Positions 8,902-30,555 of a DNA stretch of 31,854 nt are shown piece after piece. This DNA is from a virus. The stretch is taken from positions 1 through 31,854 of the IMG/VR virus record IMGVR_UViG_3300021964_000292; one strand, 5' to 3'. The notes under the pieces are model-generated. The model had not been told where the DNA came from, searched no databases, and worked only from the letters and a program-made list of their open reading frames with translations. The translations under genes were made by a program, and so were the position numbers. Positions within the stretch are counted from its first letter, which is position 1. The number at the start of each line of letters is the position of its first letter.

Positions 8902-10614
8902 TTAGACTACGTTCAAGTGACCGACGTAGACCTTACCATAGAATTCAGGACGTACCATCTTCTTGGCATAACGAGTCATCACACCCTTTCTTGGAGTGAA
9001 GTTAGATGGATCGTATACCAATGGCGTCATGATAAGCGGAATGTATGGAGCATAAACAGCACCAGTTTCGAGGAACTGTGATCCTCTGTAACCCATTAAG
9101 ATTGTATTTTCAGTCATATATGGGTTCTTGTAAACTTGGAATCTGCTGTTGATAGCACCTACTTTCTGCACGCCCATTGCAAATTGCGTCTTATTACCGT
9201 CGGTATCAGCAGCATATCCAGGAATAGATTCGAGGATAGTTGCAACAGCCGGAGAACATACTAAGAAGTTTGCTCCGCCTCTCAACGTCAATTGGTGAAT
9301 CTTATTGCTTACCTTTTGGATCTTAGTTCCTAAAGTTTGGAACCAAGTACCTTGGTTGTAAGCTTGAGCAGTTGCATTACCTTGAGTAAAGGTGTTGGTA
9401 GTAGTATCAAACTCATATCCAACTTTTGCAGACCAACGCTCAGTTGTTTGAGCATTCTGAATCAACATGTCTAAAAGTTCCAAGTCAATTTCTTGAGAAA
9501 CGTACTCAGACAACATGCTAGTCAACTCAGCCTCAGCGTCAATGCTGTGGTAAGCGTTCAAGTCTTGAGCAAACTCAGGAGACCAAACAGCTTTCAACTT
9601 ACGAGTCTTAGCAACAATTGCCTCACTTCTCATTTCCAAATTGATTTCTGGAATATCGAGGATCGTTGAATCAGTTAAGTTACCGCCAGTTGTATCTTCA
9701 AAATCGCCTCTAGAATTGTCTGCAGGCTGCTTGTGATAAGCAACGACAACTGCATCCGCACCTGTTACAACAGGAGTTGAAGCAGTTTGAGCTAAGAAGT
9801 AGATGTGCGTTGAATCTTGACGAGTAAATTCAGGAACGATATTAGTAATACCAGAACCTGACAAGTTAAATGCTCTAATACCATTAGTATCTGGAGCAGT
9901 TAAATCTGCCTTGGTAACACGAACAACTTGGTATGCTCTAGTATTAGCAGCTGCACTAGCAGAAAACTCTGCATTAAAGTTAGTGAACTTGTCTAATTGC
10001 AATCCAGTCAATGCAGCACCGCCTTCAGTAAAGGTAGCAGTAAATGGATCATATGAACCAGTGCTTACTGCAACAATTTCAGTAGCATCATTGATTGTAT
10101 ATCCAAATCGACCTGCACCATATAAACCTTCAGAAGGAGCAGCTCCTCCAGCAGCAGATGTACCTAAGTCACCTGCATCGGTAATACCAAATACAGAATC
10201 GGCTTGAGATGTTCTACCTTGGCTAGTTAAGAAGTCATTACCTGTTGAGCCATTGAAACCGTTAGTTCCTTGAGCAGTACCATACTTGAAGTCCAAGTAG
10301 AATACGAGTCCGGAAGGAAGGTTCATAGGTTGAACTGATACGAAATCTTTTGCAGCAATTTCAGCAAAAATTCTACGTACTAATGGAAGAGCAACACCCG
10401 CCCATTGTTCATCGCTTGCACCAGTACCAGTATTGTTAACTTCTGATACGAGTTGCTTGGCCTGGTTTTCTAAAAGGACGGCCATTCCTTTTCTGTCTAC
10501 CTCAGAAGCAATACCTTCCAAAAGACCGGTCTTTTCCCACTTCTTTTCTAATTGAAGTGAAGCCGCATTTTGGTTAGCCATTGCATCGGTAGGTAATAAT
10601 GAGCTTACGTTCAT
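8902..10614 (-). CDS. 23: Major capsid protein (T4 gp23-like)
   Basis: It encodes 570 residues (T4 gp23 has about 520). The N-terminal stretch KKWEKTGLLEG (residues 24-34), then VLLENQAKQLVSE (46-58), parallels the T4 gp23 propeptide. The conserved gp23 signatures ALPLVRRIFAE (75-85) and FVSVQPMNLPSGLVFYLD (91-108) follow, with the C-terminal TPLVYDP/FTPRKG region. A prohead-protease cut after VSE58 or LLE33 is plausible by analogy with T4 maturation. ACGGAGATTATTAAA precedes the ATG. It forms the capsid shell on the gp22 core and is cotranscribed with gp22, 17 bases apart. Identification is firm; the exact processing site is inferred. Confidence 0.95.
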   Translation of the reverse strand: MNVSSLLPTDAMANQNAASLQLEKKWEKTGLLEGIASEVDRKGMAVLLENQAKQLVSEVNNTGTGASDEQWAGVALPLVRRIFAEIAAKDFVSVQPMNLPSGLVFYLDFKYGTAQGTNGFNGSTGNDFLTSQGRTSQADSVFGITDAGDLGTSAAGGAAPSEGLYGAGRFGYTINDATEIVAVSTGSYDPFTATFTEGGAALTGLQLDKFTNFNAEFSASAAANTRAYQVVRVTKADLTAPDTNGIRAFNLSGSGITNIVPEFTRQDSTHIYFLAQTASTPVVTGADAVVVAYHKQPADNSRGDFEDTTGGNLTDSTILDIPEINLEMRSEAIVAKTRKLKAVWSPEFAQDLNAYHSIDAEAELTSMLSEYVSQEIDLELLDMLIQNAQTTERWSAKVGYEFDTTTNTFTQGNATAQAYNQGTWFQTLGTKIQKVSNKIHQLTLRGGANFLVCSPAVATILESIPGYAADTDGNKTQFAMGVQKVGAINSRFQVYKNPYMTENTILMGYRGSQFLETGAVYAPYIPLIMTPLVYDPSNFTPRKGVMTRYAKKMVRPEFYGKVYVGHLNVV

Positions 10615-10631: not shown

Positions 10632-11525
10632 TTAAATGTTAGCTAATTTTTTCCAGCGAGCAGCTAAATCATTACCTTCATTGATCACCTGCTTAGATGG
10701 TCTTGTAGAAGGCGTTGGCTTAGATGCATAGCTTTCTTTAATTTGTCTTTTAGCTTTAGTCGTAATAAACGATTCAGCTAATGTGCTGTAAACTAACTTT
10801 ACTTCACGCAACGTACGTGCGCGATCGAAATTTTCAATAACTTTAACCTTTTGGTTTTCGTTCAATGAATAATTTCTAAACAACTTGTTAGAGAACAACA
10901 ACTTTGCATTAAGAAGATTTACTTCGTTAATTTTAGACTTTAAGAATTTGATGACTTGATAAGCTTCTTCCAATTCTTCGGCCTTATCTTCAGCTTCCGC
11001 TACTGGCTCCTCTTCCTCTCCGTCCTCTTCACGCAATGCTTTGATAATTTCGTCGATTGAAACTTCTTCATCATCACCTTCGGATACAGTCTCTTCTTCT
11101 TCACCTTCGCCTTCAGAAACAGGCTCATCGTCTTCACCCTCGCCTTCGGCAACAGGTTCTTCGTCAGCTTCCATTTCTCCTTCAAGCTCTCTGATGATTT
11201 CTTCTAAGTCCATATCATCTTCTTCCTCGAGGTCCATATCTTCCTCTTCTTCCATAGTGTCTTCATACTCGCCTTCATCCATAGGTATATCCTCTTCTTC
11301 CTCAACCGGAGCTTCGGGAGCAGGTTCAGCGACTGGCTCTGCAGCTGGCTCAGCAACTACATCGTCGTCCTCTTCTTCTAACTCTTCTTCTTCGGCTAAT
11401 TTAGCAGATAACATGCTTTGGAGTCTGGGAGTGAAGGCCTCTTCTAATGCAATTTTTGCATTTGCCATTGCAGTTTCACGCACAGCTTTTGCGTCGGCAA
11501 TGGCCTCCTTTAAAAGGTCATTCAT
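10632..11525 (-). CDS. 22: Prohead core scaffold protein (T4 gp22-like)
   Basis: It encodes 297 residues. An N-terminal helix (about 1-45) is followed by a very acidic low-complexity tract (about 46-180) of Glu/Asp with repeated EPVAE and EPVSEGEGE units. A conserved C-terminal helical region then contains VNLLNAKLLFSNKLF and KVKVIENFDRARTLREVK, the signature I recognise from T4-type prohead core proteins. The extreme acidity fits an internal scaffold that is degraded by the protease. INE|G near the C-terminus and LRE/LEE sites are possible cleavage points. TTAGGAGACAAAA gives a strong ribosome binding site. It lies directly before gp23, as in T4. High expression is implied by its insulated position behind a terminator and a structured leader. 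Confidence 0.9.
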   Translation of the reverse strand: MNDLLKEAIADAKAVRETAMANAKIALEEAFTPRLQSMLSAKLAEEEELEEEDDDVVAEPAAEPVAEPAPEAPVEEEEDIPMDEGEYEDTMEEEEDMDLEEEDDMDLEEIIRELEGEMEADEEPVAEGEGEDDEPVSEGEGEEEETVSEGDDEEVSIDEIIKALREEDGEEEEPVAEAEDKAEELEEAYQVIKFLKSKINEVNLLNAKLLFSNKLFRNYSLNENQKVKVIENFDRARTLREVKLVYSTLAESFITTKAKRQIKESYASKPTPSTRPSKQVINEGNDLAARWKKLANI

Positions 11526-13755: not shown

Positions 13756-14351
13756 CACTTTTCCTTATCTGTAGCATACTTGACTCCCATAATAGTACCT
13801 ACAATACTAAATGAATTTGTCAAAAGTATACCAAATAAATTAGACCATGTCGATTCTATGATTTTAGAATCAAAACCTTGCGACATTACATAAACATATA
13901 ATGCCGTTGTTAATAACCCAACGCCAATAATAACATATAATGCACTACGTACAATCGTTCCTATTAACTCAAACTGTGTACGTTTTTGCAAAATATCTAA
14001 ATCATTTACTGCTTGGTCTCGCAATTGTTCTGCTTGACGTCGTAACTCATTCGCTTCTTCTTCAGATCGTTTTGTCTCGTCTAATGCCGATTGCAGTTCA
14101 GTCATTAAATTTGAATTCTTCTTTGCAGCTGCTTCAAGCTCTTTATTTTGTTGCTGCACTTCTTTTGCAACTTCCATTCGTTTTCTACGAGCTGCAACAT
14201 CTTTTTCTTTACATAATGTAAGGTAGTCTTCGAACTCTGTATCACCTTTTGGTGCTTTTAAAATTTTTAAGAAACTTCCTTCTACGTAGATTTTTTTCTT
14301 TTTAGCAACCTCGAGTAGAACATTCCTAGTATGTTCTGTTATTTCAATCAT
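13755..14351 (-). CDS. Coiled-coil membrane protein, candidate output of the phage two-component system
   Basis: It encodes 198 residues. A globular or charged N-terminus (1-45) is followed by a long Glu/Lys/Ala/Gln-rich coiled coil (about 46-122) and then two transmembrane segments (about 130-154 and 170-192) joined by a short loop (SQGFDSKIIEST). The C-terminus is short and basic. This predicts a hairpin in the inner membrane with a large cytoplasmic coiled coil. The ATG overlaps the response-regulator stop (TAATG) and its own stop overlaps the nuclease start. Since the regulator has no output domain, this directly coupled protein is the most attractive partner. No family is recognised, and a holin-like or scaffold role is possible. 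Confidence 0.75.
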   Translation of the reverse strand: MIEITEHTRNVLLEVAKKKKIYVEGSFLKILKAPKGDTEFEDYLTLCKEKDVAARRKRMEVAKEVQQQNKELEAAAKKNSNLMTELQSALDETKRSEEEANELRRQAEQLRDQAVNDLDILQKRTQFELIGTIVRSALYVIIGVGLLTTALYVYVMSQGFDSKIIESTWSNLFGILLTNSFSIVGTIMGVKYATDKEK

Positions 14352-14788
14352 TATCTATATACTTTAAATGGAGCTGTTTTATTAACATATCCATTATAAT
14401 CTTCCATAAACGACTCTAACCTAGGTTCTATATCATCGGACTTAATAATCCAAAATTGAGCTCCTACTGCTTTTGCTTTGGCAATTTCTTCTTCGTCTTC
14501 AGATGATGAAATAATACCAATTACACAACCATTACCATAGTCAGTATTTATTTTTCTAATAGTTTCGATTCCGTCCATAGAAGAACCAATAATATTTAAG
14601 TCTACAAACACACATTCGGGTCGTTCGTGATTCGGATCGTCCGGAAACCATTCTTTGAATTTTTTATCTGCTTCATCCGAGCTATCTAATGCTTCTATCG
14701 ACAATGCCATATCTAACAATGAACATGCATCCTCAAAGACAAGATGAAATAAATTTTCATCATCTATTAACATTAATGTATTAATCAT
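14351..14788 (-). CDS. Stand-alone response-regulator receiver protein
   Basis: It encodes 145 residues, a single CheY-like receiver domain. It has the acidic pair Asp9-Asp10 (MLIDDE), the phospho-acceptor Asp63 (VFVDLN), a Ser at the Thr/Ser switch position (IISSSE, about residue 94-95) and the invariant Lys116 (WIIKSDD). The segment MDGIETIRKI matches the usual receiver MDGxExxRxI. There is no DNA-binding or enzymatic output domain, so signalling must be by protein contact. The gene overlaps the histidine kinase by ATGA and the coiled-coil membrane protein by TAATG, which makes a cognate pair very likely. All phosphotransfer residues are intact. Confidence 0.92.
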   Translation of the reverse strand: MINTLMLIDDENLFHLVFEDACSLLDMALSIEALDSSDEADKKFKEWFPDDPNHERPECVFVDLNIIGSSMDGIETIRKINTDYGNGCVIGIISSSEDEEEIAKAKAVGAQFWIIKSDDIEPRLESFMEDYNGYVNKTAPFKVYR

Positions 14789-16050
14789 ATTTTTACCGTT
14801 ATCTTAGTTCCAACATCTAATTTATTTGAAATAATTTCAAAACCATGCTCCTTTAAGATTTCAATACATATGTTTAACCCTAAACCCGTACCTTCTTCTT
14901 TCTGGCCTTCTTTTCTCTGATATGGCTTAGACAGTACCTCAAACTCTTCTTGAGACATGCCGCGGCCATTATCTTCTATACATAAATATTGTTGACCTTG
15001 TTTAAACTCTGAATATATTTTTACGTACTTTGTTTTAGAATCATTATACTTTAACCCATTTCGTATTAGATTATCTAATGCCGTACAAAACAAAGCTTCA
15101 TTGACATGCAAATCTTTAGGCAGATTATCATCTAATATTACTTGATTCTTATACGCCGTTAAACGTAAATAGTCTTCTAATATAAATTTTATATCACATG
15201 CTTGTTTAGACATTTGGGCGTTATGCTTAACTAGATTAGTAAACTCATACACGCCAGCGTATACTTTTTGAGCATGATGTAATCCATCTTGAATTAATTG
15301 TAATGGTGCTTGTATACGTAACTTTTTAATTTGTTCATCATTCAATCTACGTTTTAATGATTTAATGCCCCGGGGTAAATACGTATTAATACCAGAATGC
15401 ATATCATGTCTAATAATCTTTGCGGCATGTTCTAAATAAACATCTTTTTGTTTAATAGCTTCTAATGTATTAACTAGTTCAGTTACATCTTGCCGGACAG
15501 ATGTAAACCCTCTAAGCTTATCCTTTTCATCGAAATGAGCTATGATCCAAGAATTAACGATATAATGTTTGCCATGTTTATCGACGTTAGTAACAAACTT
15601 ATTCCAGATTTGTTTATCTCGCAAGACAGTTTTGTACATATCTACCCAAAACTGTTTATCTTGTACACCTGAGTTTAATAGAACGTGATCTTGTCCTATT
15701 AACTCTTCACGTGAATACTTTGATATTTCAACAAATTTATCATTTACATATGTAATTTTGCCTCGCGCATCTGCTTTAGATACTAAACAAGATTCATTTA
15801 ATAATGATTCTAAATCAGCTTTAACGGCTACTTCTTTTTTAGCTTTTGAAAGAAATTCAGAAACGACGGTAAAAAAAGGTGGCATAAATAAAATAACTGA
15901 CAAATATTCATACCAATTTGTAAATTCTGAATAATCAAACACTTCCATCAATAATAATGTCTTAACTACAAAGAAGCTAAGCATTATTAGCGTAGCGCAC
16001 ACTAAACAAATTTTAGAGCGTAATGATATGTTTAAAAAATTTAATGACAT
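14785..16050 (-). CDS. Membrane-bound PAS-domain sensor histidine kinase
   Basis: It encodes 421 residues. Two transmembrane segments (about 13-35 and 45-66) are followed by a PAS domain (about 80-192) with ITYVNDKFVEISKYSREELI, then HVLLNSG and a closing VRQDVTEL. The dimerisation helix carries KIIRHDMHS with candidate phospho-His215. The HATPase domain has the N box DNLIRNGLKYN (326-336), G1 EDNGRGM (359-365) and G2 EGTGLGLN (386-393). All catalytic motifs look intact. The very short periplasmic loop and the PAS domain suggest sensing of an intracellular or membrane state (redox, energy, small ligand) rather than an external ligand. It starts with TAATG on the DUF2892-like gene and overlaps the regulator. 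Complete sensor kinases are rare in phages. Confidence 0.93.
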   Translation of the reverse strand: MSLNFLNISLRSKICLVCATLIMLSFFVVKTLLLMEVFDYSEFTNWYEYLSVILFMPPFFTVVSEFLSKAKKEVAVKADLESLLNESCLVSKADARGKITYVNDKFVEISKYSREELIGQDHVLLNSGVQDKQFWVDMYKTVLRDKQIWNKFVTNVDKHGKHYIVNSWIIAHFDEKDKLRGFTSVRQDVTELVNTLEAIKQKDVYLEHAAKIIRHDMHSGINTYLPRGIKSLKRRLNDEQIKKLRIQAPLQLIQDGLHHAQKVYAGVYEFTNLVKHNAQMSKQACDIKFILEDYLRLTAYKNQVILDDNLPKDLHVNEALFCTALDNLIRNGLKYNDSKTKYVKIYSEFKQGQQYLCIEDNGRGMSQEEFEVLSKPYQRKEGQKEEGTGLGLNICIEILKEHGFEIISNKLDVGTKITVKI

Positions 16051-17296: not shown

Positions 17297-17541
17297 TTGA
17301 GTAACTTATCATTTATTTGGTCTAACTTATCCTCATAACGGACTACTGTTTCTTCTAATGACTCAATTCGCTCTTTATGGTCATTAATGCGCTGTGTACA
17401 TGTTCGGTCTAAGTTAGTTAACTGTGCTTCATGTACTTTAATCATATCGACATACAAATACCCTATAACGCCTAAAGCAACAAATGCAATTGCCGAGACA
17501 GGATTTTTTGTAAATTGATCAAACGATATTGGTAATTTCAT
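17275..17541 (-). CDS. Type II membrane protein with coiled coil, candidate i-spanin
   Basis: It encodes 88 residues from the ATG at 17541 (an upstream TTG codon at 17544 is less likely). A short basic or neutral N-terminus is followed by one transmembrane segment (about 15-33, VSAIAFVALGVIGYLYV) and a periplasmic coiled coil (about 38-84, e.g. RIESLEETVVRYEDKLDQIN). This is the classic i-spanin layout of N-in anchor plus periplasmic coiled coil. Its ATG shares a base with the stop of the prohead protease (TGATG), and its 3' end overlaps the lipoprotein gene. It would bridge to the lipoprotein across the periplasm. Spanins are too diverse for sequence proof; the assignment rests on architecture and context. 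Confidence 0.65.
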   Translation of the reverse strand: MKLPISFDQFTKNPVSAIAFVALGVIGYLYVDMIKVHEAQLTNLDRTCTQRINDHKERIESLEETVVRYEDKLDQINDKLLKCLGQDN

Positions 17542-18146
17542 CAAAACTCTCTAATGATATCAGTAATTATACGATCAACTGTTCCATACATATTGTTCGT
17601 AACTTTATTTACTGATTCATTAACCGGCGACAAAAATGCGCCATGAGTAGATGGATTTGATACAAAATCAAAAGCAATTAATTCAAAGTCAGGTTGCACT
17701 TCTAATGTATTTTCGCCCTCTTTCATTACTTCTTTAACAGACCCCATACCGCGAGATGAAATGCCTAAACGAATACCAGACTTAAATAACTCTTTAAGAA
17801 TATTTCCTGAAGGCGTCGATAATACCTCAACCTTTCCTACAAGGTCATTTCCTGCCCACGCCATTTCTAAAACATTATGAGAAACATTATTAAGATTAAC
17901 AACGGATGAATCGGGATGATCTAATTCTCCTAATGCACGCTTTTCTGCAATAAATGAGTCAGAATATTTTTTTGCTTCACGTACTAATGTTTCTCTAGGA
18001 TAAATACGTCCATTCTGATTCTTAGCCTCAGCCCGTTGCAATACGCCAGATACAATTAAACGGCCATTGTTTTGAGTCATTGACTCATTTATTTGCTGAG
18101 GTGATACTTCAAATAATGTATAATCGACTAATAATGTTTTAGACAT
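17541..18146 (-). CDS. 21: Prohead maturation protease (T4 gp21-like)
   Basis: It encodes 201 residues, close to T4 gp21 (212). The herpesvirus-type protease core is visible: NGRIYPRETL (45-54), catalytic His77 in GELDHPDSS, the Ser nucleophile in GISSRGMGS (Ser130 or Ser131) and Asp160 in LIAFDFVSNPS as the probable third residue. It cleaves the scaffold, capsid propeptide and internal proteins after (L/I)xE-type sites in T4; its own N-terminus contains INE21|S22, a possible self-cleavage site. In T4 it is adjacent to gp22; here about 6 kb of other genes intervene. The stop is coupled to the i-spanin-like gene. Confidence 0.92.
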   Translation of the reverse strand: MSKTLLVDYTLFEVSPQQINESMTQNNGRLIVSGVLQRAEAKNQNGRIYPRETLVREAKKYSDSFIAEKRALGELDHPDSSVVNLNNVSHNVLEMAWAGNDLVGKVEVLSTPSGNILKELFKSGIRLGISSRGMGSVKEVMKEGENTLEVQPDFELIAFDFVSNPSTHGAFLSPVNESVNKVTNNMYGTVDRIITDIIREF

Positions 18147-20919: not shown

Positions 20920-22806
20920 TCATTCCTCTATCAACTGCGTTTCGTCTAAAATAGTACCAGAATCCGATTTATTATCTTTATTATTTAATGATTCATGAAG
21001 CATATCAGGTGTCTTAAATGCTGATTTTAATGAGCCTAATAATGCTTCTACATTTTTACTTTCTATACTTAATGGAGATGAGTTGCGATAATTATGTTGC
21101 AAAGGTGACTTGTCCGTATTAAATGACGTATCTAATGACTTAATCCCGATTGGATCTCTGCCATGCGGAGAATCATGTGAACCCCATGTGCCTGGCTCTT
21201 TTGGTCTACCGGGGCCTGCGACATGTTTTTGTTCCTGGCCGGGCAATAATTCCCCATTTCTATTAGAAACGTGCATTGATGCTATATCATGCGGCGTACC
21301 AAAACTCATATTAGTCTTCTTTGGATCATTACCTTCTGATTTTATTTGCTCTTTTCTAAAATCTGATTTTAAATCTTCTATAACTTGATCTTGTTCCGAG
21401 CGCCATTCATCTTGGCTTAATCCAAATATATTTTCATAAATCCAACGTTCAGAAAATAATGTAGATTCTTTTAACGATGTTGCCAGGGTTATTTTTTCAT
21501 TTAATGTTTCTATTTTTTGCTTTTCATAGATTAATGAAGGATTTGTTAATGATATAGTAAAATCGACTAAGTCTTCATCCTTAAATCCTTGAGAAAACAA
21601 ATGTACAATTGCAATTTTTGTTAATTCAGAAACAAATATTTTTTGTAGCCGTTCAATTGTTCTAGCAAATCTTACATCTTCTGCGGCTAATGTTGCCTTT
21701 CCTTCAACGCCTTCGTCATAACCTAAGAATGCTTTTGGTATCTTAAGCGCGGCATGCATTTTATTGCGTAGGTAGTCAATATCTTCAATTTGTCCATCAT
21801 TAGATAAGCCCGGTAGAGATTCTACAGCTGTTCCAGATTCACCTCCTCGAACTGGCAAGAAGTAATCTTCCATCATATTTTCCATATTGAACTTGAGATT
21901 ATACTCTCCCGTTCGTTCATCTATATATGGAATTTTTTTCATATTACCGATGATGTTCTTCATATGAGCATCAACTTCAGCCGGCGGAATGTTTCCTACA
22001 TCTACTTTAAATATTCTGCGTTCTGGTGCGCGCATTATTCTATGAATTAACATCGCATCTTCCATCAACATAAGTTGTTTGAAAACTTTACGTGCTGGTT
22101 CGATCATAGATTTGCCGTACGGTAAAAAGTTTGTATCTGATAATAATCTAAAATGAGCTATTTCAAAATTTTGGAACTCTCTTTGATTTTGATTAGATCG
22201 GGCAGATGCATATGCTGTATGAGTACCTTCCCATACAAATTTGTATGCATACGGATTTGCTGGATCAAATCCTTCTTCTCGGCGTACTTCATAGCCACTT
22301 AACGGTGTTACATTAACAATACCAATTTCATCTTCAATATCTAAATGTAAAAAAAAGTCACCATATTTACATGCATTACGAATCCATGGCCAGAGATTAT
22401 AATCAACATTAAGTACGTCATAAAATAAATTATGTAATACTTTTTTAATTTCATCGTTCTGCGAATTGATAGTTAGAGTGTCACCGTCAGCATCTTTAAC
22501 TGTACATTCATCTGAATAAACATCTAATGCCGATGCAATAATCGGATCCATGTCCATTGCTTCATAATCAGAATACAGTTCTAATTTAGATGTAAAGAAT
22601 GTGTAATTTTGATTATATGTTGCAAATCCAGATTGAGCTTTATGCATTCCAGAAAAACGATCTATATATCTGTTATTCGAAAGCGACCCCATCGATTGCA
22701 ATCGATTTGTATCAACTACCTTAAGCCTATTTTTTGCTATACGACGTACAACTACATTCGTCGAAAATAGTCTAGATAGTCTTGATCTTAATGATGTATC
22801 TGCCAT
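20920..22806 (-). CDS. 20: Portal protein (T4 gp20-like)
   Basis: It encodes 628 residues (T4 gp20 has 524, so about 100 longer, mostly at the C-terminus). T4-portal signatures include FFTSKLELYSDYEAMDMDPI, ASALDVYSDECT, NVTPLSGYEVRREEGFD and MIEPARKVFKQLMLMEDAML, followed by VYRIMRAPERR-like HRIMRAPERRIF and IEDIDYLRNKMHAALKIPKA. It forms the dodecameric ring at the head vertex for DNA entry and the docking site of the terminase encoded immediately upstream. The extended C-terminus (after about residue 500) is hydrophilic, with GPGRPKEPGTWGSHDSPHG. GTTATAAATATC on the plus strand marks the box in front of it. Identification is firm. Confidence 0.94.
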   Translation of the reverse strand: MADTSLRSRLSRLFSTNVVVRRIAKNRLKVVDTNRLQSMGSLSNNRYIDRFSGMHKAQSGFATYNQNYTFFTSKLELYSDYEAMDMDPIIASALDVYSDECTVKDADGDTLTINSQNDEIKKVLHNLFYDVLNVDYNLWPWIRNACKYGDFFLHLDIEDEIGIVNVTPLSGYEVRREEGFDPANPYAYKFVWEGTHTAYASARSNQNQREFQNFEIAHFRLLSDTNFLPYGKSMIEPARKVFKQLMLMEDAMLIHRIMRAPERRIFKVDVGNIPPAEVDAHMKNIIGNMKKIPYIDERTGEYNLKFNMENMMEDYFLPVRGGESGTAVESLPGLSNDGQIEDIDYLRNKMHAALKIPKAFLGYDEGVEGKATLAAEDVRFARTIERLQKIFVSELTKIAIVHLFSQGFKDEDLVDFTISLTNPSLIYEKQKIETLNEKITLATSLKESTLFSERWIYENIFGLSQDEWRSEQDQVIEDLKSDFRKEQIKSEGNDPKKTNMSFGTPHDIASMHVSNRNGELLPGQEQKHVAGPGRPKEPGTWGSHDSPHGRDPIGIKSLDTSFNTDKSPLQHNYRNSSPLSIESKNVEALLGSLKSAFKTPDMLHESLNNKDNKSDSGTILDETQLIEE

Positions 22807-22822: not shown

Positions 22823-22832
22823 TATAAATATC
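22823..22832 (-). promoter_or_regulatory. ATATTTATA box upstream of the portal gene
   Basis: The minus strand reads GATATTTATA, 16 bases before the portal ATG, overlapping the last codons of the terminase gene. Confidence 0.5.
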
Positions 22833-24408
22833 ATATTAGCCAGGTTAGATCATCTTTTCCATAGCCATTACGCCATTCCCATGCACCATTAGAATTTTTA
22901 TTAGTATATACACTAGTATCATGTTGTACTTTACCAAAGTATCCTAAAGATTTTTTAGATAATTCTAAACCTTGCTGCCGTAGCCGAAGTGCAGTATCTC
23001 GTATCCATAATGCAATACCAAATGCCATTACCAGGTCATCATTATAACCAGATTGTGCTTCAGCCTTACTACCATTCCATATAAATACAAATAATTCATC
23101 TATAAGTCGTTTACTGTGAACGATTGGCGACTTTTCTCTAAAATAAGTTTCTAGTTTTGAAATAACCAATGGCCTGGTTTTTGATGTAGTAGAAAATCCC
23201 GGAACTTTTTGTGCTTTGTTTTTTAGATCGTAACCTTTTGATAAGTGTATATCTTCATCTACATATGCATCTTGCCGATATGAGTAATATAAATTATTAT
23301 AGTTTTTATCTATTACAACTTGAATAGCCGCCCATCCTATATTTGCATTTTCAATAACTAATAATGCATTGTTCCATTCTGTTGCAACAGATACCAGCAT
23401 ATTACCATATTCTGTAGTACCTATCTTCCCTTTGTATTCAGCAACTTGAACCATGTTTTCAATTTCAATAACATGGAATGCAGAGTAGTCGCCTCCATCG
23501 CCGCGTGCAACGTCTGCTACAACAACATAGTCTTTTCCGTAATCTGGATATTCCCACATCCAGTAGTTTGAATCAAATCCGCGGCGCTCAATTGGATCTT
23601 TAACGTATGTTTGTTCATACCATTGTAATATAGGACCGTCGACTACCGTATGACCGGATGTTATAAAATCGCAGTCACATTCTTGTGCAGCCATCTTTTC
23701 GCCTAATAGTCCGGTTTGTTCATCACGCCATGATTGGTCACGTTCGGGATGTACTGTCCAGTGCAATTCAGTTGGCACGAATTGGCCTCCGGCTTCTGCA
23801 TCAACCCATGTTTTATGAAACCAGTTACCGGTGCCGTTAGGCGTTGAAAGTGCAACACAACCTCCACCAGTAGCCAATGTTTGTTGAGCAGACGCCCATA
23901 TCTCTTCAATATTTTTAATAAATGCAGCCTCATCAATAACTAATAATGACAATGCCTCAGAACGGCCGGCGGTTCCTGCACTCGATACAGCTTTTACCTG
24001 CGACCCATTCTTAAATCGCAATGAAAGTTTGTTATCTTCAATAGTACGGCCTTTTAGCCATGATGGTAAATTTTCATGCATGACTCTGATTTTGGTGACC
24101 AAGTTTTTAGCTACTTCTTGTGTTGTGGCGATGACAAGAACATTGTAGTCATCTTTAAATAACATGTTCCATAATACAAACCCGGCCGAAAGTGTTGAAA
24201 TACCTAACTGTCTAGATTTAAGGATTACGTTATAACGATTATGCTGTAATGTTGTTAACGTAGCAGCCTGAAAAGGATATAAATTAAAATACATCTTACC
24301 TTTAGTAGGATGTTGAATAATACAATATTTGCGCATAAAGTGCACAGGATCTTGTGCACATCTTTTATATTCTTCGCGAATTACTTCTTTGATATTACGT
24401 TGCGCCAT
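22831..24408 (-). CDS. 17: Terminase large subunit (T4 gp17-like)
   Basis: It encodes 525 residues. The ATPase half has the adenine-binding region NLYPFQ (42-47), a Walker A-like SRQLGIST (65-72), Walker B LLVIDEAAF (155-163) and the coupling motif STPNGTG. The nuclease half has VADVARGDGGDYSAF with Asp299, VIENANIG with Glu353 and YNDDLVMAF with Asp457/458. It pumps DNA into the prohead through the portal and cuts the concatemer. The usual Walker A Lys (SRQLGKT in T4) is replaced here by Ile-Ser, a variant that leaves the arginine of SRQ. A degenerate box (TATATTTAG) lies 6 bases before the ATG. No inteins or frameshifts are seen. Confidence 0.95.
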   Translation of the reverse strand: MAQRNIKEVIREEYKRCAQDPVHFMRKYCIIQHPTKGKMYFNLYPFQAATLTTLQHNRYNVILKSRQLGISTLSAGFVLWNMLFKDDYNVLVIATTQEVAKNLVTKIRVMHENLPSWLKGRTIEDNKLSLRFKNGSQVKAVSSAGTAGRSEALSLLVIDEAAFIKNIEEIWASAQQTLATGGGCVALSTPNGTGNWFHKTWVDAEAGGQFVPTELHWTVHPERDQSWRDEQTGLLGEKMAAQECDCDFITSGHTVVDGPILQWYEQTYVKDPIERRGFDSNYWMWEYPDYGKDYVVVADVARGDGGDYSAFHVIEIENMVQVAEYKGKIGTTEYGNMLVSVATEWNNALLVIENANIGWAAIQVVIDKNYNNLYYSYRQDAYVDEDIHLSKGYDLKNKAQKVPGFSTTSKTRPLVISKLETYFREKSPIVHSKRLIDELFVFIWNGSKAEAQSGYNDDLVMAFGIALWIRDTALRLRQQGLELSKKSLGYFGKVQHDTSVYTNKNSNGAWEWRNGYGKDDLTWLI

Positions 24409-24447: not shown

Positions 24448-25092
24448 TTATGCAAATGCTTTAATTGCCTTAACAATAATTGGATTCTTAAGATTAGCCA
24501 TTACTTCATCAGACTTAGCTAATACTTTAAGACCTTTTACTCCGCCGCTGAACCATTCCGCATCTTTAAGAGACTGAATTGCCTCTGTTCCATATCCTAC
24601 TGCCAATGATGCGACTAATATAGCATACATTATATTGACAACCGATTTTCTCGTTTGCGCATCTTTAACAAACAATTTTAATACTACATCCAACGGCTTT
24701 TTAAATCCAGCTTCGACCTCATGTACATAATGCAAAATCTTTTCAGCAAAATCTTCACCTTTTTGCCAATTTAATTTTTTTGAAAGAAACTTTACGCCTT
24801 TTGTAATTAATCCTATGATAGCATTAACTGTCATAATCTTTAATAAGATTGCTGTAATCGTCTCTATAACAATTTCATTAAGCTGATTCTTATCAGCTCC
24901 TTCATCAATTGCCCGTTGGTATTTTTCTTCCAATTCAGATACGTCGATATCAGCTTTCTTAATTGCTGCGGCTAATTCAGTTCCTACTTTAGACAATTCC
25001 TTTTCTAAGTCTTGGCCTTCGTCTGCTTCTGAAAGTACTTCATTAACTAGACGTTTTATTTCAGCTCTTAATATTTGTTCTTTATTGTTCAT
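24448..25092 (-). CDS. Hypothetical helical protein with hydrophobic segments, upstream of terminase
   Basis: The ATG at 25092 has TTGGAACAATCG before it and overlaps the previous gene by 11 bases; an in-frame ATG at 25119 (38-base overlap, no ribosome site) would add nine residues. The product of about 214 residues opens with a charged helix (KEQILRAEIKRLVNEVLSEA) containing LSE|A, a good match to a T4-type prohead-protease site. An acidic coiled coil and hydrophobic stretches (IVIETITAILLKIMTVNAII, IMYAILVASLAVGYG) follow. It may be an internal head protein with a removable leader, or a membrane-interacting protein delivered with DNA. The family is unknown. Confidence 0.65.
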   Translation of the reverse strand: MNNKEQILRAEIKRLVNEVLSEADEGQDLEKELSKVGTELAAAIKKADIDVSELEEKYQRAIDEGADKNQLNEIVIETITAILLKIMTVNAIIGLITKGVKFLSKKLNWQKGEDFAEKILHYVHEVEAGFKKPLDVVLKLFVKDAQTRKSVVNIMYAILVASLAVGYGTEAIQSLKDAEWFSGGVKGLKVLAKSDEVMANLKNPIIVKAIKAFA

Positions 25093-25696
25093 CGATTGTT
25101 CCAAATTGTTTACGGACATTTGATTTTAATTCTTTATAATCATTTTCAATTTTTTCTATAACCGATGAAATATCAACTTGACCATTTTCTCCGTCCGCAT
25201 TTTGCCAATATGTCTCTTTTATTTGTGTTTTTATTAATTCAACTTCAGCATCAGTATCTTTAAACCATGACTCTGCATTTTCGGACATTATACGTTGTTC
25301 ATATTCTTGCCATGCATTATAACCTTGGTTACGAATTTCTTGTTCTTCTTTTATAACACAACCAAAACATTTTTTTCGTTTAAACCAAAACTTAAAGTTT
25401 AATCGCTTTTCTTCGTTACGCATTTTAGTCCCACATGACGGACACTGTTCCGGTACTTTAAGTAAATCTTTAATTTTTGACTTAACACTATTTTTAGGCT
25501 TTCTAGTACGAAATCCTTTGTTTTGTGTAACTATATATACCGTACCATTTGGCATTACTTCTTCCCAAACGTCGCCGACTTCGCGCCGTTCATGTTTAGA
25601 ATCTTTATTGAATCCTACTGTTGTACGAGTCTGAGATTTATGTGTGCCATCTAGCAGCTGCTGTACAGCTTTAATATTTTGTAACTTATTGCTCAT
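25082..25696 (-). CDS. Zinc-ribbon-like protein upstream of terminase (204 aa)
   Basis: It encodes 204 residues. Two Cys pairs, CPSCGTK (near residue 89) and CFGC (near 112), frame a basic stretch (LNFKFWFKRKK) and form a probable four-Cys zinc ribbon. The N-terminus (KLQNIKAVQQLLDGTHKSQT) and the segment VWEEVMPNGTVYIVTQNKGFR look like a conserved phage domain that I cannot name. The C-terminal 70 residues are an acidic coiled coil (IEKIENDYKELKSNVRKQFG). Its place two genes before gp17, together with a nucleic-acid-binding look, makes it one candidate for the small terminase role, but this is weak. It overlaps the next gene. Confidence 0.7.
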   Translation of the reverse strand: MSNKLQNIKAVQQLLDGTHKSQTRTTVGFNKDSKHERREVGDVWEEVMPNGTVYIVTQNKGFRTRKPKNSVKSKIKDLLKVPEQCPSCGTKMRNEEKRLNFKFWFKRKKCFGCVIKEEQEIRNQGYNAWQEYEQRIMSENAESWFKDTDAEVELIKTQIKETYWQNADGENGQVDISSVIEKIENDYKELKSNVRKQFGTIDEQ

Positions 25697-25698
25697 GA

Positions 25699-26202
25699 TT
25701 AAAGAAATTGACGAATTTTCATTTTTAAACGACGCTTGCCGGCATCATCTAAAGGCAACTTACTGAGGAAGTCAATTGCAAAATCTACTTGTTGTGCTGT
25801 TGGCTTTGCTTCAACTGCCTTCATTAACATTTTAAATGCTTGAGTTTTTTCAAGTTTTTCGCCACGTGATGCTAATGCGCCACTTAAGTTTGATCCTTCA
25901 GCTTCGTTCACTGACTCACCGACTCCTAAATTACGCTGTACTCTTGATTTGATTGATGCAAAATCTTGTTGAGAAATGCCAAACTTTTGAATTAATGCAA
26001 CTACTAAATCAACTTTTTGGACTCGAGGCAATCTAGTTAATCTGTTAGTGTCAATAGTTGCTAAAATTCTATCTAACATTTGTCTACGACTTCCAAGCTT
26101 TGCACGAACAGATCCGCCTACTTGTTTTAAAAATGAATCATTTTCTTTTAATGATTCTTTTATCTGTCTACGGATCATTGACCTTAATTCAGATTCTTTC
26201 AT
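25699..26202 (-). CDS. Hypothetical helical protein with basic leader (167 aa)
   Basis: It encodes 167 residues, unrecognised and helical. The leader MKESELRSMIRRQIKESLKEND is a basic amphipathic helix ending in IKE16|S and LKE20|N (leader described here up to residue 20). The body has repeated basic helices (VGGSVRAKLGSRRQMLDRIL, RLPRVQKVDLVVALIQKFG) and ends PLDDAGKRRLKMKIRQFL. AATAGGAATAAACT precedes the ATG, with a box upstream. The leader resembles that of the 24448-25092 protein, suggesting a common targeting signal. It may be a DNA-associated internal protein; only position and charge support this. Confidence 0.65.
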   Translation of the reverse strand: MKESELRSMIRRQIKESLKENDSFLKQVGGSVRAKLGSRRQMLDRILATIDTNRLTRLPRVQKVDLVVALIQKFGISQQDFASIKSRVQRNLGVGESVNEAEGSNLSGALASRGEKLEKTQAFKMLMKAVEAKPTAQQVDFAIDFLSKLPLDDAGKRRLKMKIRQFL

Positions 26203-26235: not shown

Positions 26236-28557
26236 TTAACGACTATACCTAGATAATCCTAACAATTGATTAACAGGTGCAAAAAGACCGGTAAGTTTAT
26301 ACAAATTACCTTTATACATAAACACTAAACCTTCGGATGGAACAATCTTATCAAATCCACCTATAGATTCAATTCTTTTAAGTTCATATTTGACCTTATC
26401 AAGTGAGCCGATATCCTTTGCCTTCTGTAACTCTTTGATTGTTTGGGCGATATCTCTTTTTAGTTCTTGTGCACTTTCATTTGGCGAGGCAGCTAAAAAT
26501 TCTTTTACGTTTGATAACACCTCGGCTCCTAGCTTTAGAAAAATTTCTTCGAATCGAGCTACATTTGCTTTGTTCTGCTTAGCAAAGTCTTGTTTATCGT
26601 ACGCTTTAATCTTATTAAGCATATCAACATCCGGTACTGATTTTCCATTTAACCTAAACGATTTATCATTATATGCCCATCGCTGTAACAAGCCTTCCTT
26701 TACTTCCGTAGTAGCGGACGGAAAATCTAAATCTATTTTACGTCGCCACCATTCTTCATGATATTTCATAACTTCGTCAGAGTCTTTTAATCCAAACTCT
26801 TTTTGAAGTTTATTGACACGAGCAATAAATTCAGGCTCTAATTTTTCGAAATCAATACTACGTTGAATCATTAATTTTTTTGGCGGAATAATTTTAAAAT
26901 GTTTTTGAACATCAGCATTCACATCTGCTATCAATGACTGCAATAGTGGTCCATACTCTGGATAAGTATCTGTTTTAGTTGCAGATTCTAAATCAAATTC
27001 GTTTAGTCCATGAAACTGCAGATATGCCGACGTACCGTAATTGATGACATTTTTCGTGCCTGGATATATAATTTCTAAGTTTAGAAATCTAGTTCCATTT
27101 TGGAATACTTCTTCTCGCTTATCTTGCGGTAGTGCTAATATAGCTTGTTCTAAATCGCGCATTGCATACGAAAATGCTTTCGTCAATTCACCTCTATCTG
27201 CGAACTTACGTTCAATGGCTTGCACATCTAATGGATTACGTATCGTAGCTTTATTTCTAGCAGCGCCTACTTTACCATCTTTAAATGTTACATTGAGATT
27301 TTGCCCATCTGTCTTTTCTGTCACATCGGCTTCTAAATCCAATCGTCCTTCCAACGATAAACGAATAATTTCTTTCATTTCTGCGAAAGTCAAATCTCGA
27401 TCATCAAATGGATGTGACATATGACCTGATGCGCCGCCTTCTGTTATAAGAGACTCTTTTATAATAGTCTTCCACCAGTTTGCAGTAAATAATGATTCTT
27501 TTATTGGCACTGGCGTCGTTGGTTCGTTTTTAGAGCTAGCAATTGCTTCGCCGGCTCCTAGAAAGTTTAAAAACTTATATCCTACTTGTTGTGCTACTTT
27601 ACTTATATGTTTAGACCATTCTTGGTACGCGGGATTTCCGCGCATATCTTTTATATAATTAGTACCTGCATAATTCGAACCAGCCACACCACTAGGAAAG
27701 TATGATACACCCATAGGTGGTCCATCTGGATATTCTGTTGAATGCACTTCTATAGGGCTATCTTTGATAATGTAATTAAGAACTGAAAATCCTAACTTTT
27801 CTGCCATTTGTTTGTTTTTAGCACGATAAGTAGCTTGATTACCATAAAAATATCTTGGGCCATCGTCTACCATAGATTTACCCAACGGTAGATTACTACT
27901 ATTTTCAACTATAAACCGTTCAATGTTTTCTATCGCTAGCTTCGAGAATTTTTTTTTGAGAAGATTATAAATTGTAGGATCAAAGAATCCCATGATTGAC
28001 TTAAAATCTGCAGGCGTTGCATTTGCCAATGCCTGACGTAATATTGTTCCTGACATTTCTCCATATCCAGGAACATTTAATGATACATGTGGCGCAACGT
28101 ATAAGTACCCATGTTTAGTATATGGTAATAAATTATCTTTATTATCATCATAATATTGAAAATATGATGGCTCACCGTTCTTTTTAAATCCTACTTTAAA
28201 TCTAGGATCTTCCATCATATCTTTTTTACCAACCGCAAATAAGACAGCTGTCGTTTCTGGATCATACTTGCTAGTTATTTCTGCGGACTGATATGGGTTT
28301 TTTACTTGAATGACGTTTGTAATGCCGTGTTTATTAATAACACGTTTCTTTTCATTAAAGGTCAATGGGGACTTTGGTAACGCCACTTTATCAGATGTTG
28401 CAATGTATGTGTTCGATTTACCAAATCTAGAAGCTAATTTTTTATATACTTCGGCATGATGTTTACCCATTGGCTGAAAACGGCCGGGGTATATTACAAC
28501 GACTGTCTTAATTTGACTTTCGTTAAGTAGTTGATTAGCTAACCATTCTCCTAACAT
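26236..28557 (-). CDS. Fusion: NMN-adenylyltransferase-like domain plus RNA/DNA-ligase-like nucleotidyltransferase
   Basis: It encodes 773 residues. Domain 1 (about 17-205) is a cytidylyltransferase/NMNAT fold: VVVIYPGRFQPMGKHH (19-34) and the MSGTILR (168-174) version of the SxTxxR motif. The HxGH motif is altered to GKHH. A middle region (about 220-345, YFYGNQATYRAKNKQM...) is unassigned. Domain 2 (about 385-773) is a covalent nucleotidyltransferase: motif I EKTDGQN with Lys415, ARNKATIRNP, motif III-like LNLEIIYPG with Glu495, motif IV EGLVF (742-746) and motif V-like YKLTG with Lys754. It may act in RNA or DNA end repair, ligation or NAD metabolism. ITE373|G374 at the domain junction and LNE13|S14 before domain 1 fit prohead-protease sites. 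AAAGGATTCGT precedes the ATG. Confidence 0.8.
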   Translation of the reverse strand: MLGEWLANQLLNESQIKTVVVIYPGRFQPMGKHHAEVYKKLASRFGKSNTYIATSDKVALPKSPLTFNEKKRVINKHGITNVIQVKNPYQSAEITSKYDPETTAVLFAVGKKDMMEDPRFKVGFKKNGEPSYFQYYDDNKDNLLPYTKHGYLYVAPHVSLNVPGYGEMSGTILRQALANATPADFKSIMGFFDPTIYNLLKKKFSKLAIENIERFIVENSSNLPLGKSMVDDGPRYFYGNQATYRAKNKQMAEKLGFSVLNYIIKDSPIEVHSTEYPDGPPMGVSYFPSGVAGSNYAGTNYIKDMRGNPAYQEWSKHISKVAQQVGYKFLNFLGAGEAIASSKNEPTTPVPIKESLFTANWWKTIIKESLITEGGASGHMSHPFDDRDLTFAEMKEIIRLSLEGRLDLEADVTEKTDGQNLNVTFKDGKVGAARNKATIRNPLDVQAIERKFADRGELTKAFSYAMRDLEQAILALPQDKREEVFQNGTRFLNLEIIYPGTKNVINYGTSAYLQFHGLNEFDLESATKTDTYPEYGPLLQSLIADVNADVQKHFKIIPPKKLMIQRSIDFEKLEPEFIARVNKLQKEFGLKDSDEVMKYHEEWWRRKIDLDFPSATTEVKEGLLQRWAYNDKSFRLNGKSVPDVDMLNKIKAYDKQDFAKQNKANVARFEEIFLKLGAEVLSNVKEFLAASPNESAQELKRDIAQTIKELQKAKDIGSLDKVKYELKRIESIGGFDKIVPSEGLVFMYKGNLYKLTGLFAPVNQLLGLSRYSR

Positions 28558-28652: not shown

Positions 28653-28904
28653 TTAACTCCAATTAATTCCATCAATAGATGCAATTTGAGCTGCAGAAAC
28701 TCCAGAAAAAGATGATATATTAGCTTTAAGTATACCATCAATAGAACTAATTGACACCCCTGATGGAGGAGGAGGTGGGGGTGATTCAACAGCTGATAGC
28801 GTTTTTACAGGGGCTGTAACGAACGGTATACTACCATATATTAACTGAGGAGTAGTAGTATATAAGTAAGGTACGGTACCATATATTAATTTTACTTTAC
28901 CCAT
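28653..28904 (-). CDS. Small fibre-associated protein with polyproline linker (83 aa)
   Basis: It encodes 83 residues in three parts. The first is an N-terminal double repeat, KLIYGTVPYLY and QLIYGSIPFVT. The second is a PPPPPP linker near residues 42-47. The third is a C-terminal SISSIDGILKANISSFSG, ending IASIDGINWS, a Ser-Ile-Asp-Gly repeat often seen at the end of phage structural proteins. It overlaps the beta-helix gene by 8 bases. It shares that gene's low CpG content and probably entered with it. It may be a tip, connector or assembly factor of the beta-helix adhesin; no family is claimed. Confidence 0.65.
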   Translation of the reverse strand: MGKVKLIYGTVPYLYTTTPQLIYGSIPFVTAPVKTLSAVESPPPPPPSGVSISSIDGILKANISSFSGVSAAQIASIDGINWS

Positions 28905-30555
28905 TTAAATCAAAATTAGAGAAGTGTACATATGAAGCATCATCAGTATCAACATTAACCAACACAACATCAATAGGATTAGCAGCAGTTGTATTAACTG
29001 TTAGGGTCTGCCAAGTTCCTGTTTGGTCCCCGGTTCCACTAGCAGATGCCGAAACTATTTGTCCATTAACTAATTTATCTACTAGAATTAATTTTGGAGG
29101 ATCAGAAGTAACATTGTATTTTACAGAAACAGAAGCAGTTAGTGAACCACTAATATTAGCTGCTAAAGCAAATCCCCCATAACCTAAAGCTTTAATTCCA
29201 AAATTGCTTCCTGTTACATAAGTATTGTCTATTACAGGTGAATCGGGGAATTGGTATCCTGGGAATGCTCCTTGGAATTTGTTAGTATCTGTAAATCCCT
29301 CACCTCCTGCTTTAATATTACCCATAGGGACTCCTATAGTATCATAGGATCCGGGAGGGGCATATGTGTCTTTTAACCAGTTAGAAGCATATCTAATACC
29401 TGCTCCGGAAACAAATGCTTCTAAAGCTTCACCTTGAGTACCTGCTGAACCTGTTATTTGGGTCACATAAAAAGGTAATCCTGTGCTTCCTGAGTAAAAA
29501 TAATCAGTCCCAGGGAGAGGACGGTTTCTAAGCATATGTTGTAGATCATTACAAATCCCTACATATCCAGTATAAAGCATACCCTTAGCTTCTGTTGGAG
29601 TAAAGTTGACATCATCAACAGACTGGTTAATTGAGGAACCATATCCTGAGTAATAAACTGAGGATAATTCTGAACCTGAGTTTATGTTGGGGTAAATTCC
29701 TGCTGCTATAGTATCCCCATTTTGATAAGCATAATAACCAGCTATTGAAAGGAAACCTATCATGTTATAGTTTCCGGAATCTAGCCCGGCGGTTGCTGAT
29801 CCTACAGCTACATTATTTTGCCCCCCACTATTAGAAAAACCTATGTTACAAGCTATAGCATTGCTATTATAAACAGCACCATAATCACTACCTAAAGTAC
29901 CATATTCATCTATAGAACAATTGTAAAAGCCATTAGATGATCCTATAGCTAAACACCCATAAACATAAGCATACCCAAAACCACTAAAACCCCCTATAGC
30001 AACACAATTAACACTATTACAACCATAAAAACCAAATCTACCTCCTATAGAACTACAATTGTAAGCAGTAACATCATGTGTTGTGAAAGAACTGTTTTGG
30101 ATAGCAAAGCTACAATTAGAAAAATGACAATTTTCTATAAAAACCCCATAACTAGTAGAACAAAATATTCCCCTTCCCGTTGTTCCTGTATAACCTACAA
30201 ATGTTAGATTTTTAATATGCCAATAATCATCCCCAATAAAACTAAGACCACTAAAATTCCGTACGGGTATTAAAGTAGCTGAGTCCATGGCTGTTAAAAT
30301 AACTTCCCCCGGGGTATCGCTTGTTAAGTATTCAGCTTGAGTGTCTCCTATGATTTTTTTAGGGTTATCTATAGTCCCATCACCATTTATACTATTAGTA
30401 GTGGTGTGATAATAAACCCCAGGTCCTATATATAAAATATCTCCAGCAGCAGACATAAGAGCTAAACCTGCTGCTACTGTTTTTTTAGCTGCTCCAGCAG
30501 ATGTACCTGCGTTTGCATCACTACCATTTTGATCTGAAACGTAATAAGTGGCCAT
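28897..30555 (-). CDS. Right-handed parallel beta-helix tail/adhesin protein (552 aa)
   Basis: It encodes 552 residues. The N-terminus ATYYVSDQNGSDANAGTS with KTVAAGLALM and GDILYIGPGVYY is the start typical of DUF1565/pectate-lyase-like beta-helix proteins. Short Asn/Cys/Gly/Phe-rich coils follow at about 100-290 (NCHFSNCSFAIQNSS, YNCSSIGGRFGFYGCNSVN, SSNGFYNCSIDEYG), matching beta-helix rungs with Asn and Cys ladders. A jelly-roll-like C-terminal domain (about 430-552, GSNFGIKALGYGGFALAANI) could bind sugar. It may be a depolymerase or receptor-binding spike; no catalytic site is identified. The gene is notably poor in CpG, unlike the 873-aa fibre gene, suggesting recent acquisition. It starts with TAATG on the 121-aa gene. 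Confidence 0.8.
   Translation of the reverse strand: MATYYVSDQNGSDANAGTSAGAAKKTVAAGLALMSAAGDILYIGPGVYYHTTTNSINGDGTIDNPKKIIGDTQAEYLTSDTPGEVILTAMDSATLIPVRNFSGLSFIGDDYWHIKNLTFVGYTGTTGRGIFCSTSYGVFIENCHFSNCSFAIQNSSFTTHDVTAYNCSSIGGRFGFYGCNSVNCVAIGGFSGFGYAYVYGCLAIGSSNGFYNCSIDEYGTLGSDYGAVYNSNAIACNIGFSNSGGQNNVAVGSATAGLDSGNYNMIGFLSIAGYYAYQNGDTIAAGIYPNINSGSELSSVYYSGYGSSINQSVDDVNFTPTEAKGMLYTGYVGICNDLQHMLRNRPLPGTDYFYSGSTGLPFYVTQITGSAGTQGEALEAFVSGAGIRYASNWLKDTYAPPGSYDTIGVPMGNIKAGGEGFTDTNKFQGAFPGYQFPDSPVIDNTYVTGSNFGIKALGYGGFALAANISGSLTASVSVKYNVTSDPPKLILVDKLVNGQIVSASASGTGDQTGTWQTLTVNTTAANPIDVVLVNVDTDDASYVHFSNFDLNG

Follow-up and report, generated by a model that had tools for sequence, protein, structure and literature searches.

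An NMNAT-like adenylyltransferase-ligase fusion of a T4-type phage as a candidate head-packaged enzyme precursor

The window, the whole 31,854-nucleotide stretch analyzed here (IMG/VR record IMGVR_UViG_3300021964_000292, positions 1 to 31,854), encodes on its minus strand a 773-residue protein that joins an NMNAT-like adenylyltransferase, a middle module, and a ligase-type nucleotidyltransferase (26236..28557; ATG start, single uninterrupted ORF). Catalytic residues are conserved in both enzyme domains, site-like peptides lie at three boundaries, and the gene is found in a late/head synteny together with a gene for the cognate protease. We propose, with a probability of roughly 55%, that the fusion is a head-packaged precursor whose enzymes are separated by the gp21-type prohead protease and injected with the DNA for early repair or counter-defence. 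The NMNAT-ligase architecture, the assignment of DUF6267 to the ligases, and the repetition of targeting- or cleavage-like peptides between enzymes are new. An earlier note, made from the letters of this DNA, had described one polypeptide with an NMNAT-like and a ligase-type domain, and the intact ORF bears this out, with the motifs it named in their places. That note missed the middle module (about residues 219-373), the targeting- and cleavage-like peptides, and the occurrence of both domains in far larger polyproteins.

An independent contig (L002) carries the fusion ORF without any change, and further contigs carry it at 95-70% identity. An AF2 model of the 773 residues has a mean pLDDT of 79.8. 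Residues 17-210 and 379-773 are of high confidence, with both enzyme domains mostly above 85-90, and residues 211-378 are mostly below 50-65. The first domain (residues 17-210; 27928..28509, minus strand) carries GRFQP (residues 25-29), GKHH, and SGTILR (169-174). In a 50-sequence homologue alignment, which underlies the conservation counts of fusion residues, G25, R26, H34, T171, and R174 are invariant, and F27, Q28, and S169 are conserved in at least 90%. Motifs, Foldseek, and VIA-align concur on a HIGH-superfamily Rossmann fold with SGTxxR. The best PDB match in Foldseek is the NadM-Nudix protein 2r5w (E 5e-4), and VIA-align gives Z 11-12 against PPAT, NadD, and NadM over residues 16-208, the first domain dominating the matches when the whole fusion model is searched. 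In profile searches, the nearest sequence relative is the archaeal NMNAT MJ0541 (E 1.1e-6). The Pfam CTP_transf_like match is under its cut-off (E 0.015), and the NadM-specific models are unmatched (NF003787, 19.5 bits vs 449; TIGR01527, 14.5 vs 181). "NMNAT" here names the closest sequence relative and a putative substrate. At the HxGH position, GxHH occurs in 52 of 74 relatives, including the window protein (GKHH), and HxGH in 22; with GxHH, activity may be changed or lost.

The ligase-type domain (residues 374-773; 26239..27438, minus strand) contains EKTDG, NLEIIYP, LQFHG, EGLVF, and YKLTG in the order of the covalent nucleotidyltransferase motifs, with EKTDGQN at 414-420, EGLVF at 742-746, and YKLTG at 753-757. 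K415, D417, and G418 of motif I are invariant in the 50 sequences, as are E495 (III), F515/H516 (IIIa), E742-G743 (IV), and K754 (V), together with T756. Motif V has a single Lys (YKLTG), not KxK. Foldseek matches this half to T4 RNA ligase 2 with modest E-values (2hvr/2hvq, E 4-6e-3, prob 0.93-0.98; 2hvq itself prob 0.98, E 5.6e-3) and to the archaeal RNA ligase of P. pacificus. In the AF2 model, a helical insert of about 200 residues sits between motifs IIIa and IV. The assignment rests on motifs and fold because a sequence profile of this half found no ligase among PDB sequences, and the Pfam RNA ligase model PF09414 scores 13.9 bits against a cut-off of 27. No C-terminal domain follows motif V, since YKLTG ends at residue 757 and 16 of the 773 residues remain. 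As modelled, the covalent nucleotidyltransferase (polynucleotide ligase) superfamily is the right class for this domain, and ligation itself is predicted. The structural comparison that the earlier note had called for thus returns NadM and T4 RNA ligase 2, and its condition that active-site residues be conserved agrees with the alignment; its likeness to T4 Rnl1/Rnl2 holds for the superfamily but not for the family, given the low PF09414 score and the lack of anything beyond motif V.

That the enzyme folds were co-opted as non-catalytic core or scaffold proteins is very improbable. The prevalence of GxHH in place of HxGH and the location among head genes would fit such a role, but a purely structural protein should not demand the invariance, across 50 sequences, of the ligase KxDG, the Glu of motif III, the EG of motif IV, and the Lys of motif V, nor of GTxxR in the adenylyltransferase.

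Between the two enzymes lies a middle module of about 155 residues (219-373; 27439..27903, minus strand; VDDGP..YFPSG..), delimited by the alignment and of low pLDDT. In the alignment it is missing from L009 and from Microcystis phage Mel-JY01, and Pfam and further family-profile searches gave no family match. An alignment-based scan of viral contigs recovered at least 581 relatives of the fusion, and nearly all of the best 80 of these loci retain adenylyltransferase, middle module, and ligase. Close relatives are rare in cultured phages, the example being Mel-JY01, to which two huge metagenomic phages can be added. The family is apparently restricted to phages. A cellular origin was considered and rejected, as just 9 relatives occur in 84,980 genomes, every one on a phage-like MAG contig. 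Many chains carry further modules: an AAA_33/zeta-like P-loop kinase (L064, L067, L072, L083, L085), HD (L072, by motif only, and L086), Nudix (L080, L082), or ParB (L012). The longest, of 1592 residues (L072 4676-9451), combines kinase, HD, NMNAT-like, DDGP, and ligase modules. The family shares with polyvalent proteins the combination of unlike enzyme domains in one phage polypeptide. In L010, L101, and L102, the ligase is exchanged for DUF6267, and in L013 and in cyanophages the adenylyltransferase and ligase-type domains are encoded by separate genes. The pairing of NMNAT-like and ligase-like proteins therefore recurs as fusions and as neighbours, a widespread phage theme of which the window fusion is one form; the earlier note had asked how often the domains are fused or adjacent, and the association is found in hundreds of phages.

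The same note had suggested that NAD or dinucleotide chemistry is coupled to polynucleotide ends. A cytoplasmic bifunctional enzyme of this kind, with the domains cooperating chemically in the infected cell (NMN recycling, end capping, or NAD+ feeding the ligase), would account for two conserved active sites, for activities that remain fused or neighbouring in many phages, and for NadM-like Nudix and kinase modules in relatives. It is nonetheless quite unlikely: a disordered stretch of about 165 residues separates the domains, the partners are interchangeable (DUF6267 for the ligase), and the targeting-like N-terminus, the head-cluster location, and the detection of relatives in virions point elsewhere. 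Direct coupling finds no support in a disordered linker, varied partner modules, separate genes, and protease-like boundary sites, and the mature enzymes are probably separate for these reasons. Joint loading into the head is a likelier link between the two domains than a common reaction.

DUF6267 extends this pairing to cyanophages. The exchange form in L010 matches the family model (PF19782, E 9.7e-98), which the window ligase does not match, and hhalign of the window ligase half against DUF6267 gives a probability of 3%, so that homology is not demonstrated. Both have an H-x-x-H start and KxDG, and the DUF6267 order KWDGAP, QGD, HTTY, EGYV, KLVDR is that of ligase motifs I, III, IIIa, IV, and V. 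Foldseek with a DUF6267 model is weak (best ligase match E 0.26). With VIA-align, the top Z is 8.1, and all 50 of the 50 matches listed are RNA, tRNA, or DNA ligases. The DUF6267 profile found no ligase among PDB sequences, and matches to Pfam RNA_ligase are under the cut-off. Judging from motif order and the modelled fold, DUF6267 likely belongs to the same ligase superfamily, a likely enzyme class; in the literature searched it is not described as a ligase. DUF6267 occurs in 469 phage records, mostly cyanophages, and in the T4-like cyanophage genomes examined the "cytidylyltransferase" gene is its direct or close neighbour. In S-PM2, the two are fused. There, DUF6267 extends over two annotated ORFs (S-PM2p141/142; L094 5947-7726), the second half in frame with the cytidylyltransferase, and the split may reflect a frameshift or an error in the sequence.

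The window is a T4-type head module. It encodes, all on the minus strand, a T4 gp21-family prohead protease predicted to carry out the processing (17541..18146; Peptidase_S77 PF03420, E 5.8e-27; phrog_207, E 9e-55), a T4-type major capsid protein (8902..10614; phrog_138, E 3e-72), a T4-type gp20 portal (20920..22806; PF07230, E 2.6e-81), and a terminase large subunit (22831..24408; PF03237, E 2.7e-9; phrog_2, E 3e-46). An acidic protein in the protease-capsid interval (10632..11525) is scaffold- or core-like by position and composition, and profile searches gave it no family match. The fusion gene lies upstream of the terminase, and a terminase motif is found downstream in 47 of the 55 loci with more than 4 kb of sequence.

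Other genes of the window can be recorded here. A phage-encoded two-component pair lies within the head-gene block, made up of a 421-residue sensor kinase with PAS and HATPase domains and, directly after it, a 145-residue response-regulator receiver protein (14351-16050, minus strand). A 204-residue CxxC...CxxC protein (25082-25696, minus strand) has counterparts after the fusion gene in Mel-JY01 (L011 9867-10505) and LR756508 (L012 8503-9147); by pattern search, such a protein is downstream of the fusion gene in just 3 of 73 other loci. Near the fusion gene, a 552-residue right-handed beta-helix-like protein (28897-30555, minus strand), which has no Pfam family match, is probably a fibre or adhesin.

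In T4, internal proteins reach the prohead core by means of a capsid-targeting sequence that gp21 then cuts off (PMC5694885; PMC3012670). The T4 record gives MKTYQEFIAE/A, the slash marking the cleavage position here and below, as the N-terminus of both IPII and IPIII. The window fusion has three peptides of this type, all candidates and all on the minus strand: an N-terminal one, MLGEWLANQLLNE/S (residues 1-13, ..LLNE/S; 28519..28557), a possible T4-like capsid-targeting and protease site; FIVE/N at the boundary of adenylyltransferase and middle module (residues 215-218; 27904..27915), distinguished by the conservation of E218; and KTIIKESLITE/GGA at the ligase junction, with E373 as P1 (27439..27465). 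At the N-terminus of relatives, LGxWLAxQILxE is conserved, and residues 2-11 are helical in the AF2 model.

Sites were scored with a matrix trained solely on the N-termini of standalone DUF6267 proteins (for example MKFTEYLTE/S, MYSFKQYLNE/A, and MKSFQTFLNE/A), peptides that had been chosen to have Glu as P1 and a hydrophobic residue as P3. Applied to 230 T4 N-termini, the matrix ranks IPIII, IPII, and gp22 (a gp21 substrate) first to third, and it misses IPI and Alt (ranks 80 and 73). Among 78,166 T4 10-mers, GSFLTE/AE, after Glu65, which we take to be the gp23 site, is fourth. Among the 8,999 10-mers of the window, the fusion N-terminus is first and the fusion ligase junction fifth. In 23 fusion homologues less than 70% identical, 41 of the 69 best sites fall inside three boundary windows (N-terminus, post-adenylyltransferase linker, and ligase junction), against 4.8 expected and a maximum of 13 in 2,000 shifts. 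Because these windows are Glu-rich, the matrix columns were shuffled as an extra control; shuffled matrices place a mean of 12 sites at the boundaries, and none of 300 reaches 41.

The same peptides recur where modules join. Fused DUF6267 (L101, L102, L010) has L-x-E/A before KANTHL or SANTHL at the junction, matching the position of the N-terminal peptide in standalone copies. Free forms of the kinase start ..HLSE/GLYDPGIFKA, and fused forms read ..PFLNE/GARDPGIFKA or ..NINE/GVNDPGIFKA. Many cyanophage DUF6267 proteins and some adenylyltransferases (Syn1) have no targeting-like peptide.

The main rival holds that the fusion is packaged and injected but loses only its N-terminal peptide, acting as an intact "polyvalent" multi-enzyme whose internal LxE motifs are relics of ancestral N-termini. 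In its favour, the internal sites lie where standalone homologues begin, an outcome that domain fusion alone would produce, Met or Cys replaces the junction Glu in 11 of 50 homologues, and polyvalent proteins such as N4 vRNAP can be packaged unprocessed (PMC5512222). We consider this reading unlikely, if the least so among the alternatives, given that Glu218 is retained in 46 of 47 ungapped sequences within a disordered linker and the junction residue is Glu in 39 of 50, in a region that is otherwise disordered and variable and where a relic should decay; moreover, the gp21 protease occupies the same prohead. Since the junction Glu is Met in 10 of the 50 homologues, mostly in longer polyproteins, cleavage there is not universal. 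The LLLMGG subfamily rules out universal cleavage at the ligase junction and, by its sequence, is probably uncut at that position.

Targeting-like N-termini are also found on neighbours of these genes. Two small proteins beside the fusion gene (24448-25119 and 25699-26202, minus strand) have N-terminal helices ending VLSE/A and SLKE/N and may be packaged as well. In L176 (2517-4991), a Pol-beta nucleotidyltransferase fused to an NMNAT-like domain, reminiscent of RNA-ligase-associated Pol-beta enzymes, has a strong targeting-like N-terminus (MRFKDFIKE/S). HAD-like proteins (GGLTIFDIDDTL) near DUF6267 genes have targeting-like N-termini and a weak Pfam match (L165 2765-3490, L174 5480-6196, L125 5785-6534). 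A conserved DUF6267 neighbour with TPKTDF..ISLK..QLMSG (L122 1375-2436, L096 4878-5936, L098 4836-5921) has a PD-(D/E)XK nuclease-like core, no convincing Pfam match, and targeting-like N-termini (MKTFKQHLTE/A, MQGFKTFLSE/A).

Relatives of the first domain have been found in particles. The cyanophage "cytidylyltransferase" was detected by MS in purified virions of S-SM1 (PMC3037559), S-CREM2 (PMC10665884), S-SZBM1 (PMC9146016), and S-SCSM1 (PMC9602691); the authors of two of these studies caution about possible carry-over (PMC10665884; PMC9602691). All three virion-detected adenylyltransferases that were checked begin with such a peptide (MKKFSAFLNE/A, MKNFSSFLTE/A, and MRFRQFIIE/A), with matrix scores of 15-18, and a score above 10 is reached by 5% of 413 other ORFs at DUF6267 loci. 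In S-SZBM1, the DUF6267 protein adjoining the cytidylyltransferase has no peptide, and the 30 virion proteins published for this phage do not include it (PMC9146016).

We infer the packaging, cleavage, substrates, and role of the window fusion from these features. With the T4 capsid-targeting sequence as a model, the N-terminal amphipathic peptide ending LLNE would target the late-made fusion to the prohead core, where the gp21-type protease would cut after Glu13, Glu218, and Glu373. These cuts would take off the peptide and free the NMNAT-like adenylyltransferase, the middle module, and the ligase. The freed enzymes would be ejected with the DNA and be active in the first minutes of infection, before phage gene expression. 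Their likeliest role would be to restore NAD+ and to repair nucleic-acid ends damaged by host defence. Near these genes lie a P-loop kinase, a HAD-like phosphatase, HD, a Pol-beta nucleotidyltransferase, a ligase, and Nudix; this is the toolkit that heals and seals nucleic-acid ends and salvages NAD, and early repair or counter-defence is for that reason suggested as the likeliest purpose.

A wider reading, to which we give slightly less than an even chance, is that T4-type phages load their heads with polyproteins whose interchangeable enzymes are set apart by repeated capsid-targeting and prohead-protease peptides. The maturation protease would cut this cargo as well as the shell, and a fixed-ratio NAD and nucleic-acid repair kit would accompany the genome into the host. 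Its modules would be the adenylyltransferase, the ligase or DUF6267 ligase, kinase, HD, Nudix, and ParB, alongside neighbouring HAD phosphatase and Pol-beta. The peptides provide a sequence-level rule for predicting the injected proteins of a T4-type phage, a rule checked on T4 and three published cyanophage virion proteomes. If cleavage occurs, the maturation of cargo polyproteins in phage heads would resemble that of polyproteins in eukaryotic viruses, and these abundant aquatic phages would start infection with repair or counter-defence enzymes made beforehand.

Among known systems, the T4 internal head proteins (IPI-III, Alt) share with the fusion a short N-terminal peptide ending hydrophobic-x-Glu, late head-cluster expression, a genome that also encodes a gp21-family protease, and the delivery, predicted here, of enzymes or anti-defence proteins with the DNA. 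Unlike them, the fusion has several enzymes per chain with site-like peptides between them too, and none of the T4 proteins is NMNAT-like or a ligase. The polyvalent proteins of Iyer et al. (2017; PMC5512222) also combine many unrelated enzyme domains per chain and are predicted to be injected early, and ParB and zeta-like kinase modules are common to both. They are built around zincin peptidase or ArdC hubs with proposed self-processing, whereas the fusion would be cut in trans by the prohead protease; Pfam scans, which could miss divergent domains, detected no zincin peptidase or ArdC-N hub, and the NMNAT-ligase architecture does not appear in the passages of PMC5512222 searched. PMC9503650 and PMC7824862 review the NMNAT-Nudix (NadM) and NMNAT-kinase (NadR) proteins of phages along with phage RNA ligases, and their relevant passages do not describe an NMNAT-ligase chain. 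NadM and NadR are the nearest sequence relatives of the first domain, and Nudix (L080) and P-loop kinase modules occur in the fusion family. Unlike them, the fusion has a ligase partner, GxHH, and a head-targeting-like peptide, and it is under the NadM family cut-offs. T4 RNA ligase 2/PF09414, fungal Trl1, and Naegleria RNA ligases have the same KxDG..EG..K motifs and predicted nucleotidyltransferase fold; the window ligase differs in its sub-threshold Pfam score, its insert between motifs IIIa and IV, and its lack of a post-motif V domain. A further parallel is the cyanophage pair of T4-GC190, the "cytidylyltransferase" (phrog_395) found in virions, and T4-GC71, which is DUF6267 (PF19782): the same two functions are encoded there by separate neighbouring genes, unfused in most phages, whereas the window phage joins them in one chain.
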